Shown: positions 38,664 through 42,782 of the stretch, piece by piece
Numbering within the stretch: the first letter of the stretch is position 1
How the letters are laid out: each line of letters begins with the position of its first letter
DNA from: Actinomycetota bacterium
Lineage (GTDB): Bacteria; Actinomycetota; Acidimicrobiia; Acidimicrobiales; Ilumatobacteraceae
Direction: 5' to 3'
Length of the DNA stretch: 64,000 nucleotides
Assembly: GCA_009701715.1 (NCBI GenBank)
Contig: WLJO01000003.1
Span: 1 to 64,000 of the forward strand
Translations under genes and position numbers: made by a program
The notes under the pieces: generated by a model
The model's input: the letters and a program-made list of their open reading frames with translations, nothing else
Databases searched by the model: none
What the model was told of the DNA's origin: nothing

Positions 38664-39890
38664 TCAGACCCGTTCGATGATGGTGGCAGTTGCCATACCG
38701 CCACCGGTGCACATCGTGATGAGTGCCGTCTGCTTGTCGCTCCGCTCAAGCTCGTCGACTGCGGTCCCGATGAGCATGCCACCGGTTGCGCCGATCGGGT
38801 GGCCGAGTGCGATTGCCCCACCGTTCGTGTTGCACTTGTTCCAGTCGGCGCCTGTGTCGCGGAGGAACCTCAGTACCACGGCGGCGAAGGCCTCGTTGAC
38901 CTCGATGTGGTCGATGTCGTCGATGGTCATGCCGGCCTTCTTCAGGCATCGCAGCGTTGCCGGTCCGGGGGCTGTGAGCATGATCACCGGGTCCGTGCCG
39001 GCCAGTGCCGTCATCGTGATCTTGGCCCGCGGCTTGAGGCCGTGTGCCTTGGCGTAATCGCTCGACACGACAAGCACGGCGGACGCGCCGTCGACGACAC
39101 CGGAGGAGTTTCCCGCATGGTGCACGTGACGCAGCTCGGCCACCTGCGGGTAGGTGAGGAGGGCGGTCTGGTCTACCGTGAGGTCGTTCTTGAACTTCTT
39201 GGCGCCCATCGCCTCGAACGAGGGGGTCAGCTTCGAGAGGCTCTCCAACGTCGTGCCGGCGCGGGGGAACTCCTCGTGATCGAGGGCGAGGGTGCCGTCG
39301 TCGTGGAGGATCGGCACGAGGCTGCGGTCGAAGCGGCCCTGCGCGATCGCAGCGGCCGCACGGGTCTGGCTGTCGAACGCGATGCCGTCGCACTCCTCAC
39401 GGCTGAAGCCCTCGACCGATGCGATGAGGTCGGCCGAGATCCCCTGCGCCACCATCGGGTACTGGTCGAAGAGGTGATCGTTGTTGGCAGTGAAGCCGTC
39501 GACGTGCAGCGGGGCGGGGCGTGACATCGACTCGATGCCGCCGGCCACGACGATGTCCTGGAAGCCGGAAAGCACACCCTGTGCAGCGAACATCACGGCC
39601 TGCTGGCCAGAGCCGCAGAAACGGTTGAGCGTGACGCCGGGGGCGTCGAGGGACCATCCGGCATCCAGCGCTGCCATGCGCGCGATGTCCATGGCGTGGT
39701 CGCCGCTGCCGGCGCCGCAACCCATGATGACGTCGTCGACCTCAGACGTGTCGAAGCCGACGCGGTCGCGCAGTGCATTGAGCACCTGGGCGAGGATCCG
39801 CTGGGGGTGAACGTTGTGCAGGGCACCGTTGTCCTTACCCTTGCCACGGGGCGAACGGACGGCGTCGATGATCCAGGCTTCACGAGTCAT
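38664..39890 (-). CDS. acetyl-CoA C-acyltransferase (thiolase)
   Basis: 408 aa. Active-site Cys92 in N-R-F-C-G-S-G-Q-Q, second triad in G-G-A-I-A-L-G-H-P-I-G-A-T-G and C-terminal M-C-T-G-G-G-M-A. It cleaves 3-ketoacyl-CoA to acetyl-CoA and a shortened acyl-CoA, or condenses in reverse. TAGGTT lies 6 bases before ATG (leaderless). It is divergent from the UGA-containing thioredoxin-like gene, with only 31 bp between the start codons. Confidence 0.93.
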   Translation of the reverse strand: MTREAWIIDAVRSPRGKGKDNGALHNVHPQRILAQVLNALRDRVGFDTSEVDDVIMGCGAGSGDHAMDIARMAALDAGWSLDAPGVTLNRFCGSGQQAVMFAAQGVLSGFQDIVVAGGIESMSRPAPLHVDGFTANNDHLFDQYPMVAQGISADLIASVEGFSREECDGIAFDSQTRAAAAIAQGRFDRSLVPILHDDGTLALDHEEFPRAGTTLESLSKLTPSFEAMGAKKFKNDLTVDQTALLTYPQVAELRHVHHAGNSSGVVDGASAVLVVSSDYAKAHGLKPRAKITMTALAGTDPVIMLTAPGPATLRCLKKAGMTIDDIDHIEVNEAFAAVVLRFLRDTGADWNKCNTNGGAIALGHPIGATGGMLIGTAVDELERSDKQTALITMCTGGGMATATIIERV

Positions 39891-39921
39891 GGGTGAAACC
39901 TACGCCGGTAGCGTCCACCGT
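39891..39921. promoter_or_regulatory. compact divergent leaderless promoter (thiolase / thioredoxin-like selenoprotein)
   Basis: Within 31 bp, the minus strand has TAGGTT (39902-39897) 6 bases before the thiolase ATG. The plus strand has TAGCGT (39909-39914) 7 bases before GTG 39922. The two -10 boxes are back to back, so each gene starts with a leaderless mRNA, and the -35 region of each lies inside the other gene. Confidence 0.65.
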
Positions 39922-40443
39922 GTGAAACGCAGGTTCGTTGGCTTGGCCGCCTCGACCATCCTCGCGATCAGCTGTTTGGCATCCGGTTGCGCCAGCGACT
40001 CCGGGTCGGGCGTGGCTGCGGCCCGTCCGGGCGGCGATCTGCCCGACGTCTCGGTGACAAACGTGGGCTCCGGGGAGTCGGTGGGCCTGCACTCGCTCCT
40101 GCCGGGTGATCGCCCCCTGCTTGTCTGGTTCTGGGCGCCCTATTGAACCGCGTGCCGGGCGGAGGCGCCTGGGGTCGAGCAGTTCGCCCGACAGCACGAA
40201 GGTTCTGTCACCGTGATCGGGCTCGGAACTCAGCAGAGACTCGAGGATGCACGGTCCTTCTCCGACAGTTTCGGCCCCTTCACGTTCCCGCTGCTCTGGG
40301 ATGCGAGCGGTGAGTCTTGGGCCCAGATCGGCATCACGGTCCAACCAGGAGTGGCGATCTACCGGGCCGACGGGACCCTGCTCGAGAAGTGGTATGGCGG
40401 CCTCGAGCGTGCCGACGTGCTGCTCGAGCAGTTGCGCGCCTAG
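39922..40443 (+). CDS. TlpA-like thioredoxin-fold lipoprotein, predicted selenoprotein (UGA = Sec75)
   Basis: 173 aa when TGA 40144-40146 is read through. Lipoprotein signal with lipobox L-A-S-G-C23. The thioredoxin fold opens with LLVWFWAPY, then TGA, then T-A-C78-R-A-E-A-P. TlpA/ResA proteins have W-A-P-x-C-x-x-C here, so the TGA falls exactly on the first redox cysteine. The frame stays open with normal codon use to a proper C-terminus containing WAQIGITVQPGVAIYRADG, which holds the cis-proline. It would reduce or exchange disulfides at the outer face of the membrane. A hairpin directly behind the TGA resembles a bacterial SECIS. The alternative is a nonsense-mutated pseudogene, but no other damage is seen. 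Confidence 0.8.
40144..40175 (+). promoter_or_regulatory. candidate bacterial SECIS element with UGA codon
   Basis: TGA is followed by a hairpin: CCGGGCG (40155-40161), tetraloop GAGG (40162-40165), CGCCTGG (40166-40172), a 7-bp stem with one G-T pair. ACC right after the TGA could also pair with GGT (40173-40175 region). The loop begins with G and lies 16 bases after the UGA, within or near the spacing known for bacterial SECIS elements. It must still encode protein, which it does. Confidence 0.62.
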
Positions 40444-41690
40444 TCCTTTGGCTGGTCGGTGTCCGGGTTGCCCCCCGGTTCGGTGCCGTCCAGATGGCCG
40501 TGCAGGATCGGATCGATGCGGATCGACTCCGTTGGTTCGCGCGGTGGTCGGAACTCGGGGCCGATGCGGAGCAGACGCTTCGCCTTGCGCAGTAGACCGG
40601 CACCCTGTGAGGTGCGCGCCGGAGCGCCGCCGAAGCGGAACTCGAGGTACAACTGCTTCACCGTGCCGATGAGTGGGGTGGCTACGAGTGCTCCGGGCAC
40701 CCCGGCGATAGCGCCGCCGAGAATGGCTGCGAGCATCGTCGTGGGCGGGGAGAGGTTGACGGCACCACCGACGATCGTGGGCTGGATCACATGGTTCTCC
40801 ACGTTCATATAGATGAGGAAGAGCACGAGCACGATGAGCGCCGTGGGCACGCTGTTGCTCACGGCGAGGATGACGAGGAACGATCCGCCAAGGAAGCCGC
40901 CGATCTGGGGGATCAGGCTCGTGAGCATCGCCCAGATCGCGGCGAGCGGAGCGAGCGGCACGTTGAAGATCAGCCCTACCGTGAGTACGAACAGACCCAT
41001 CAGCGCTGCGACCGTGAGCGATCCGCCGAAGTAGCGGCCGATCGTCCGGTGGAACACCCGCGCTATGCGGTCGGCGTCGTCCCGTGCCCGCAGTGGCAGC
41101 ATCCGTCTCCCGCGGTTGACGAGTCGCTCACCGTCGAGGAGTACGGCGAAGGTGGTGAACACCACGACCACCATGGCGAACACACCGCCGAGCAGTCGGT
41201 TGGCCGTGTCGGCGATGGCCTTGTCGCTGACGTTCGCCGGGAGGTCCCGGATCCACTGCTCGACCTTGCCCGCTGCGTCGCGGTCGCGCAGCGTGTCTCC
41301 CACGATGGGGAGGTCGTAGAACTGCTCGACCGTTTGGGGGATCTCCCTGCTGAACTCGCGGGCCTGGGAGACCGCCGGCGGGCCGAGCACGAGGAGGATG
41401 AACGCGGCCACTGCCAACAGGCTGACCCCGACGATCCCGACGGCGATGCTCCGGGTGAAACCGAAACGGTTCCGGAGTTTTTGCACCACACCGTCGAGCG
41501 CGAGGGCCAGCACGATGCCGATGACTACCCGGGTCAGCATCCCCTCGGTGTTTCGGGCGACGGCGAAAACGGCGAAACCAACGAGTAAGCCGAGTAGTAC
41601 CCAGACCGCGGTGCGGAAGTCGATCTGCACGACTGCCGACGCGGGCGCCGGTTCGGGTGCGGGCTGTGGATCGCTCATCGGGTCCGCCAC
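40440..41690 (-). CDS. AI-2E family transporter / membrane permease
   Basis: 416 aa, about eight membrane helices. Family features include an N-terminal helix pair, the FVLTVGLIFNVPLAPLAAIWAMLTSLIPQIGGFLGG region and LIVLVLFLIYMNVENHVIQP, with a long C-terminal cytoplasmic tail. Named after TqsA, but members also export other compounds. I choose GTG 41690 (VADPM...), since TAAGGT lies 7 bases upstream, rather than ATG 41678. The 3' end overlaps the selenoprotein gene by 4 bp, convergently. It is divergent from a second AI-2E family gene. Confidence 0.87.
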   Translation of the reverse strand: MADPMSDPQPAPEPAPASAVVQIDFRTAVWVLLGLLVGFAVFAVARNTEGMLTRVVIGIVLALALDGVVQKLRNRFGFTRSIAVGIVGVSLLAVAAFILLVLGPPAVSQAREFSREIPQTVEQFYDLPIVGDTLRDRDAAGKVEQWIRDLPANVSDKAIADTANRLLGGVFAMVVVVFTTFAVLLDGERLVNRGRRMLPLRARDDADRIARVFHRTIGRYFGGSLTVAALMGLFVLTVGLIFNVPLAPLAAIWAMLTSLIPQIGGFLGGSFLVILAVSNSVPTALIVLVLFLIYMNVENHVIQPTIVGGAVNLSPPTTMLAAILGGAIAGVPGALVATPLIGTVKQLYLEFRFGGAPARTSQGAGLLRKAKRLLRIGPEFRPPREPTESIRIDPILHGHLDGTEPGGNPDTDQPKD

Positions 41691-41708
41691 AGGCAGTACC
41701 TTACGTTC
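41691..41708. promoter_or_regulatory. symmetric bidirectional -10 element between two AI-2E genes
   Basis: The two GTG starts are only 18 bp apart. The 7-mer TACCTTA (41697-41703) reads TACCTT on the plus strand, 6 bases before GTG 41709, and TAAGGT on the minus strand, 7 bases before GTG 41690. One duplex element would serve both leaderless promoters. Confidence 0.65.
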
Positions 41709-42782
41709 GTGGCCGAGCCGAATGGTGCTCCCCGGGTTCCCCCGGGTTTCCGTCTGTTCCGTATCCGGGTCACGCCTGGTTCGGTGGCCCTCGTGCTCGG
41801 CGCCTCCGTCCTTGCGGTGCTGCTCCGCAATGCGTTCGTCGCAGCGCACCGCCAGATCGGCTGGGCGGTCGCCTGTGTCATCGTGGCGTCGCTGCTCGCG
41901 CCGCTCGCGGACCTGTTGGACAAGCGGATGCCGCGCTGGCTCGCGCTGCTTGTCACCATGCTGAGCCTCGCTGTCATGACCGTCGTGGTGTGGGGCGCGA
42001 TCATCGTGAACGTTCAGGACGGTCTGTCCACGCTGGGCAACGAGGCACCGCGCGCAGCCGCTAGCCTGGAGCGGCGGTCCGAGATGGCCAAAGACTTCCG
42101 TCTGGTGGAGCGGGTCAATTCGTTGATTGCCACCGTGAGGCGCCCATCGCAGGGCACTGCGGTGGGGCAGGCCGTCGGTGCGGCAGGCACGTACTTCGTC
42201 TGCGGCATCCTCACCCTGTTCTTCCTCATCTACGGACCGCGCATGCTGCGCAGCGCGTTCGCCCAGATCCGGGATCCGGGCCGCAGGACCCGGATCGAGC
42301 GCCGAACAGGGCTCGCGATGCAGAACGGCCGCCGCTACATCGTTGCTGCGATCGCCCAGACAGTCGTCGTTTCCGCAGGGATCGGCCTGGCATCGTGGGC
42401 CCTGTCGCTGCCCGCACCGTTTGTCCTCGGTGCGCTCGCCGGCACCGTCGGGCTCGTGCCCACGCTCGGTGTGCTCGTCGGCAGCCTGCCGGCACTGCTC
42501 CTAGCCGCCGGGCTGAACGGTTGGCGCGACGCGGTAATCGTCGTCGGTGCCGCCGTGGTGCTGCAGGCCGTCGAGGTGTTGGTGGTGCGCAAGCGCGTCG
42601 ACCGTGCGAGCGTCCACATCGGCCCTGCCCTGCCGGCAATCGTGGCGCTACTCGGTTACGAGTTGTACGGCATCGGTGGCGCGATGTACGGCGCGGCCGG
42701 GCTCGTTTTTCTGATCGCGTGGCTCGACGTGCTGGGGATCGACGACACACCGGCTCCTGACGTTGGTGATGTCAGGACCTGA
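41709..42782 (+). CDS. AI-2E family transporter / membrane permease
   Basis: 357 aa, about eight membrane helices, the same family as the divergent neighbour but only distantly similar. The central region holds LFFLIYGPRMLRSAFAQI, and the later helices have LAGTVGLVPTLGVLVGSLPALLLA and the VLQAVEVLVVRKRVD motif corresponding to the family N-x-x-x-P loop. Substrate unknown. Start GTG 41709 is set by the -10 TACCTT 6 bases upstream. The divergent pairing of two paralogues suggests they work together or as alternatives. Confidence 0.85.
   Translation: MAEPNGAPRVPPGFRLFRIRVTPGSVALVLGASVLAVLLRNAFVAAHRQIGWAVACVIVASLLAPLADLLDKRMPRWLALLVTMLSLAVMTVVVWGAIIVNVQDGLSTLGNEAPRAAASLERRSEMAKDFRLVERVNSLIATVRRPSQGTAVGQAVGAAGTYFVCGILTLFFLIYGPRMLRSAFAQIRDPGRRTRIERRTGLAMQNGRRYIVAAIAQTVVVSAGIGLASWALSLPAPFVLGALAGTVGLVPTLGVLVGSLPALLLAAGLNGWRDAVIVVGAAVVLQAVEVLVVRKRVDRASVHIGPALPAIVALLGYELYGIGGAMYGAAGLVFLIAWLDVLGIDDTPAPDVGDVRT

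Follow-up and report, generated by a model that had tools for sequence, protein, structure and literature searches.

The window, meaning the whole 64,000-nt stretch of DNA that was analysed, holds a gene at 39922..40443 on the plus strand that opens with a GTG at 39922, closes with a TAG at 40441-40443 and comprises 174 codons including that stop and an in-frame UGA. On translation, the TGA at 40144-40146 (+) is the only internal TGA of the frame. The read-through product is VKRRFVGLAASTILAISCLASGC...LLVWFWAPY-U-TACRAEAPGVEQFARQ...VQPGVAIYRADGT...QLRA-stop. The UGA, a candidate selenocysteine (Sec) codon, encodes the first residue of a UxxC motif within VWFWAPY-U-TACRAEAP, and the translations place the resolving cysteine of this U-T-A-C motif at the TGC at 40153..40155 (+); VQPGVAI follows later, ahead of the C-terminal QLRA. 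An earlier note on this DNA had read the frame in exactly this way, from 39922 through a UGA at the first cysteine of a thioredoxin motif (40144-40146) to a normal stop ending at 40443. It had also anticipated that automatic annotation would split the gene, and mechanical ORF calling does cut it into 39814-40146 and 40213-40443, with the second ORF beginning at a GTG at 40213 within the domain.

The N-terminal stretch (39922..39990, +) resembles a signal peptide when the translations are inspected by eye. Because it ends in the lipobox-like LASGC, the read-through product is likely a lipoprotein carrying a lipid anchor. The corresponding stretches of relatives end in comparable lipobox-like sequences (LVSC, FAAC, AAAC).

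The gene stands alone between a divergent thiolase gene upstream (38664..39890, minus strand; Pfam Thiolase_N/C) and a convergent AI-2E family transporter gene downstream (40440..41849, minus strand; Pfam AI-2E_transport), the latter overlapping its stop by 4 nt. These neighbours are given as context; the start region of the divergent thiolase lies upstream of the gene in both congeners too. The transporter ORF and a second AI-2E family ORF (41709-42782, plus strand) are arranged back to back and overlap at their predicted 5' ends, so one start codon or both probably lie further in. A scan of the window for UxxC and CxxU in read-through frames returned nine other matches, all of which looked non-coding by eye.

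Fold and relatives of the read-through product

The best Pfam match of the read-through product was AhpC-TSA (PF00578; 37 bits, cut-off 26), and Redoxin (PF08534; 34.9 bits, cut-off 26.6) and Thioredoxin (30.1 bits, cut-off 23.5) also scored above threshold. The nearest solved structures were Mycobacterium tuberculosis MPT53/DsbE (1LU4, E 1.6e-15) and DsbF (3IOS, E 5.9e-15). Both alignments extend over about 90 residues and span the redox motif and the QP segment, as expected of a thioredoxin fold with a WCxxC-type motif and a cis-proline. The cis-Pro segment that had been claimed from the letters is borne out by the same alignments, in which the QP of VQPG (approximately 40342..40353, +) falls on that of 1LU4 and 3IOS; judging from the fold, this proline would adopt the cis conformation. 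The curated NCBIfam cut-offs for dsbE (35.4 bits against 123.15), ResA (29.9 against 170) and TlpA (20.9 against 230) were not reached by the read-through product. Judged by these scores, the window protein is related to the curated dsbE, resA and TlpA subfamilies and is not a member of them. The earlier description "TlpA-like" consequently stands at the level of the superfamily, the closest characterised relatives being the mycobacterial DsbE and DsbF.

M. tuberculosis DsbE (MPT53, Rv2878c) and DsbF (Rv1677) share with the window protein the thioredoxin fold, a WFW(A/T)P-x-(U/C)-xxC motif followed by EAP, and QP at the cis-Pro position, and they are exported actinobacterial proteins, as the window protein is predicted to be. 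They differ in that both are Cys-type CxxC proteins, whereas the window protein has a predicted Sec and a probable lipid anchor, and the sequence similarity is moderate only. DsbE and DsbF of M. tuberculosis fold hirudin oxidatively, and neither reduces insulin (PMC3853704). The expected role of the window protein, by homology, is disulfide exchange outside the cell.

Conservation of the UGA and the selenocysteine machinery

Protein searches of 61 relatives, and then of 248 genomes of the same order, recovered many homologues with exactly one internal TGA. A close homologue was present in 71 of the 248 sampled genomes of the order, mostly with the UGA, and among 120 same-order homologues with a recognisable motif the codon at this position was TGA in 100 and Cys in 20. 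Both congeners (59% and 57% protein identity) share the start region and carry TGA at the same codon. The retention of the TGA across the order, both congeners included, indicates that it is neither a lone mutation nor a sequencing error. A maximum-likelihood tree of 119 proteins required at least seven changes between Sec and Cys, with short alignments leaving some forks unresolved. The clade of the window gene in this tree (clade A) comprised 82 rows, 80 of them Sec. The frame downstream of the UGA was intact in all 80 clade A sequences, each of which ended at a later ordinary stop. In 45 of the 80 genes the final stop was itself TGA, which argues that UGA has not been reassigned genome-wide.

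The Sec form of the protein was accompanied by selA in all 16 genomes tested; where genomes were tested through Cys-form copies, selA was found in 3 of 12 and not found in the other 9. One further genome, about 90% complete, had a weak TGA-bearing match (G008:C44:95574-95885, E 2e-11) and no detected selA; here either selA is missing from the assembly or the TGA-bearing homologue is not a selenoprotein. Several genomes had two neighbouring copies of the selenoprotein gene a few hundred bases apart, both with UGA (G272:C1:2390013-2391015, G231:C30:204590-205580, G238:C64:31406-32576 and G127:C63:52138-53559, among others).

The assembly of the window genome (2.8 Mb, 96 contigs, 97% complete) contained selA (332 bits; G000:C34:95194-96225), followed immediately on that contig by selB (271 bits, match from 96303), and also selD (349 bits; G000:C34:18945-19889, locus L018). 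The selD gene has one in-frame TGA, in the motif HGAG-U-ACK, and is itself a selenoprotein gene. The earlier prediction of a UxxC selenoprotein is thus supported by TGA in 100 and Cys in 20 of the 120 homologues together with selA, selB and selD in the same genome. Its proposed search for the Sec machinery succeeded for these genes and failed for tRNA-Sec: none reached the Rfam cut-off in the 96-contig assembly. Candidates checked in the window genome were ordinary tRNA-Cys, tRNA-Ser and tRNA-Leu.

All 15 relatives searched, both congeners included, had a tRNA-Sec above the cut-off, and the anticodon was UCA in each of the six checked with ARAGORN. In the congener G002, tRNA-Sec sits immediately upstream of a gene for a CpaF-like ATPase, an arrangement partly kept in G003. 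Contig C62 of the window genome breaks off within its counterpart of this CpaF-like gene, 171 nt beyond the match, and does not reach the site expected for tRNA-Sec from the G002 arrangement. Because the contig stops short of this site, an assembly gap is the likely but unproven explanation for the missing tRNA-Sec. This synteny is suggestive only, as the neighbours of tRNA-Sec in the congener G001 differ from those in G002. The two congeneric tRNA-Sec genes were found at L056 577-672 and L064 1501-1595, one flanked by acetyltransferase-like and Dyp-peroxidase-like genes and the other by the CpaF-like ATPase and a dioxygenase-like gene; tRNA-Sec therefore seems to have moved within the genus.

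RNA structure downstream of the UGA

The 7-bp hairpin with a GAGG loop noticed earlier, 8 nt after the UGA, is real (hairpin 1; 40155..40172, +; CCGGGCG-GAGG-CGCCTGG; −12.5 kcal/mol). Its identification as a bacterial SECIS holds in part. In the 80 clade A sequences, the region +7..+28 was more stable than a control that permuted synonymous codons between sequences sharing the residue at that site (mean −10.88 against −7.18, z −15.5), which indicates that structure in the hairpin 1 region is selected. Hairpin 1 nonetheless probably does not make up the entire SECIS. The distance from the UGA to its loop is 15 nt, which falls one short of the 16-37 nt in the published bacterial SECIS model (PMC13188914), and its register and loop sequence vary among relatives. 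In a fixed register, its excess pairing was weak (0.553 against 0.533 in the control).

A second, more strongly conserved hairpin, missed when a single hairpin was named, lies immediately downstream of hairpin 1 at 40175..40191 (+) (hairpin 2; TCGAGC-AGTTC-GCCCGA, with the RNA loop AGUUC 34 nt after the UGA). Across 80 distinct clade A relatives its positions were paired in 95.2% of cases, compared with 89.1% (sd 0.45) in synonymous permutations, none of 1000 of which reached this level; the corresponding site in Cys homologues was 31.6% paired. An independent count on 30 sequences gave 97.2% pairing against 85.7% when shuffled, and 18 double-sided compensatory cells against 3.3, the compensatory pairs being CG/UA/AU and AU/CG/UA/GC. 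RNAalifold predicted exactly this helix. The loop was AGUUN, at one fixed position, in 73 of the 80 clade A sequences, and leucine at the loop codon was encoded by UUR in 12 of 12 cases, although UUR makes up 13% of the downstream leucine codons of the same genes. At the fourth pair (40178/40188), the window copy has an A·C mismatch that no other sequence in the set of 80 shows. This mismatch divides the stem into 4+2 bp and weakens it: the 17-nt core has an energy of −3.2 kcal/mol, or −7.6 with the flanking G-C pair, which lies only just within the energies asked of a SECIS; the congener hairpin has −8.0 kcal/mol.

Hairpin 2 is the best-supported SECIS core, as judged from this pairing and loop conservation. 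It agrees with the bSECIS consensus (Fig. 2A of PMC13188914) in having a 5-nt loop with G at position 2 followed by U, and its distance of 34 nt from the UGA falls inside the 16-37 nt range. The published model consists of one hairpin, whereas here a strong separate hairpin 1 precedes hairpin 2. Searching the window genome with a covariance model of the SECIS region gave one confident match, this gene (59 bits; next match 21.5 bits). The weaker matches (21.5 bits or less) lay in frames that did not resemble selenoprotein genes.

Two adjacent hairpins recur with the same spacing in selD of the window genome and 22 relatives: the first spans about +8..+24, and the second (+26..+42) exposes G-U in its loop. 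Hairpin 2 of selD was paired in 90.9% of cases against 85.5% in the synonymous control (0/1000, z 5.7). Pairing of selD hairpin 1 did not exceed the synonymous control (247/1000), and the whole +1..+48 region had little excess stability (z −1.7), so the two-hairpin claim in selD rests on hairpin 2 and the conserved placement. The congeners' selD hairpin 2 share a bulged U on the 3' side (CUG-U-CGCC). Clade B of the oxidoreductase family (loci L031, L038, L041, L042, L044, L045, L048, L049, L172 and L177-L181) had only one hairpin, CCUC-GGUC-GAGG, whose loop lies 26 nt beyond the UGA and whose stem shows a compensatory CUUC/GAAG in two members. The RNA signal thus differs between branches of one protein family. 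The two clades are partly co-resident: one genome (G014) has L023 and L104 of clade A together with L177 of clade B.

These observations raise the possibility, which we put forward tentatively and hold as somewhat less than probable, that the Sec signal of this order is a two-hairpin element in which a variable G+C-rich hairpin at about +8..+26 is followed by a hairpin at about +26..+45 with a G-U loop 33-35 nt after the UGA, used by unrelated genes (the oxidoreductase and selD), with clade B using a single GGUC hairpin at +26. If true, the use of two hairpins in some genes and one in others implies that SelB tolerates different spacing.

A predicted exported selenocysteine oxidoreductase

The locus is best explained, with high confidence, as a gene for an exported, probably lipid-anchored thioredoxin-fold oxidoreductase with a Sec nucleophile at the UGA. 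The stem-loop region directly after the UGA would recruit SelB with Sec-tRNA; the G-U loop of hairpin 2 is the most likely contact, and hairpin 1 may be an accessory helix or act as a spacer. Sec would then be inserted at the UGA and translation would run on to the TAG. Once exported, the protein would use its U-T-A-C motif for thiol/disulfide exchange with secreted proteins, in the manner of its mycobacterial relatives DsbE and DsbF. The computation itself shows the frame, the conserved UGA, its pairing with Cys in homologues, the genes for SelA, SelB and SelD and the selection acting on RNA structure; Sec insertion, the hairpin that SelB binds, lipidation, the substrates and whether the enzyme oxidises or reduces them are inferred. 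Sec as the attacking residue usually speeds thiol/disulfide exchange.

That the UGA might instead have arisen by mutation or miscall of TGC or TGT in a Cys-type protein draws on the single base separating these codons from TGA, on the existence of Cys homologues and on the mismatched hairpin 2 of the window copy. A pseudogene or sequencing error is refuted for the family by the TGA that both congeners and 100 of 120 homologues carry at this codon, and the intact frame past the UGA in all 80 clade A sequences and the selection on RNA structure after the UGA beyond protein constraint make it very improbable here. It is scarcely credible that the UGA is a genuine stop, giving either a truncated exported peptide of 74 residues or two separate genes. 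Mechanical ORF calling does yield two ORFs, but the first would be missing the whole redox motif along with most of the fold, the second (GTG 40213) starts inside the domain, and both halves align to one thioredoxin-fold protein and are joined in one frame in the Cys homologues. If readthrough or a variant code placed an amino acid other than Sec at the UGA, for example Cys or Trp, this would accord with the failure to find tRNA-Sec in the assembly of the window genome, and some bacteria are known to have variant tRNAs that decode UGA as Cys. Against this stand the ordinary use of UGA as a stop (45 of 80 clade A genes end in TGA), the presence of selA, selB and selD, the conserved SECIS-like structure and the tRNA-Sec with a UCA anticodon in relatives, and we consider such recoding improbable to a high degree.

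Within the Sec reading, it is unlikely, though far from negligible, that hairpin 1 and not hairpin 2 is the SelB-binding SECIS of this organism. Hairpin 1 is the stronger of the two in the window copy (−12.5 kcal/mol), has G first in its loop and lies in a region whose structure is also selected (z −15.5), and the window hairpin 2 is mismatched. Its loop and register are variable, however, and its 15-nt spacing falls just outside 16-37 nt, whereas hairpin 2 has a near-invariant AGUU loop, a fixed position and strong covariation, and in selD the pairing of hairpin 2 exceeds its synonymous control (0/1000) where that of hairpin 1 does not (247/1000). Hairpin 2 is accordingly the SECIS core that we favour.

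The gene belongs to an already known kind, the UxxC selenoproteins of the TlpA/redoxin type. UxxC selenoproteins on TlpA-like (cd02966), redoxin (PF08534) and Prx-like (PF00578) scaffolds were catalogued in a 2026 review (PMC13188914), and a "thiol-disulfide isomerase-like protein" selenoprotein with cd02966 and UxxC dates from the 2005 Sargasso Sea set (PMC1088965). The cd02966 selenoprotein (reference MGB1650493.1; PMC1088965, PMC13188914) and the window protein share a TlpA/ResA-like thioredoxin fold with Sec first in UxxC, and, compared by description, both have Cys homologues and a downstream bacterial SECIS. The "Redoxin family protein" selenoprotein (HEU0032618.1; Table 1 of PMC13188914) has PF08534 and UxxC in common with the window protein and, again by description, is possibly the same family under another label. 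PF00578 and UxxC are likewise shared with the Prx-like thiol:disulfide oxidoreductase selenoprotein (UxxC/UxxU; Table 1 of PMC13188914), but PF00578 and PF08534 are broad, and the nearest solved structures of the window protein are of the Dsb type, not peroxiredoxins. A literature search that excluded most subscription journals found nothing on selenoproteins in this order, taken to be Acidimicrobiales (Acidimicrobiia), or on paired-hairpin bacterial SECIS elements, and the paired-hairpin layout is a possible new SECIS variant.

Taken together, these data document widespread exported Sec oxidoreductases, as predicted here, in an actinobacterial order, where automatic annotation cuts them at the UGA. 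The covariation data yield a SECIS model that can be tested in these bacteria, and the closely related pairs of Sec and Cys proteins allow selenium and sulfur chemistry to be compared in Dsb-type enzymes.
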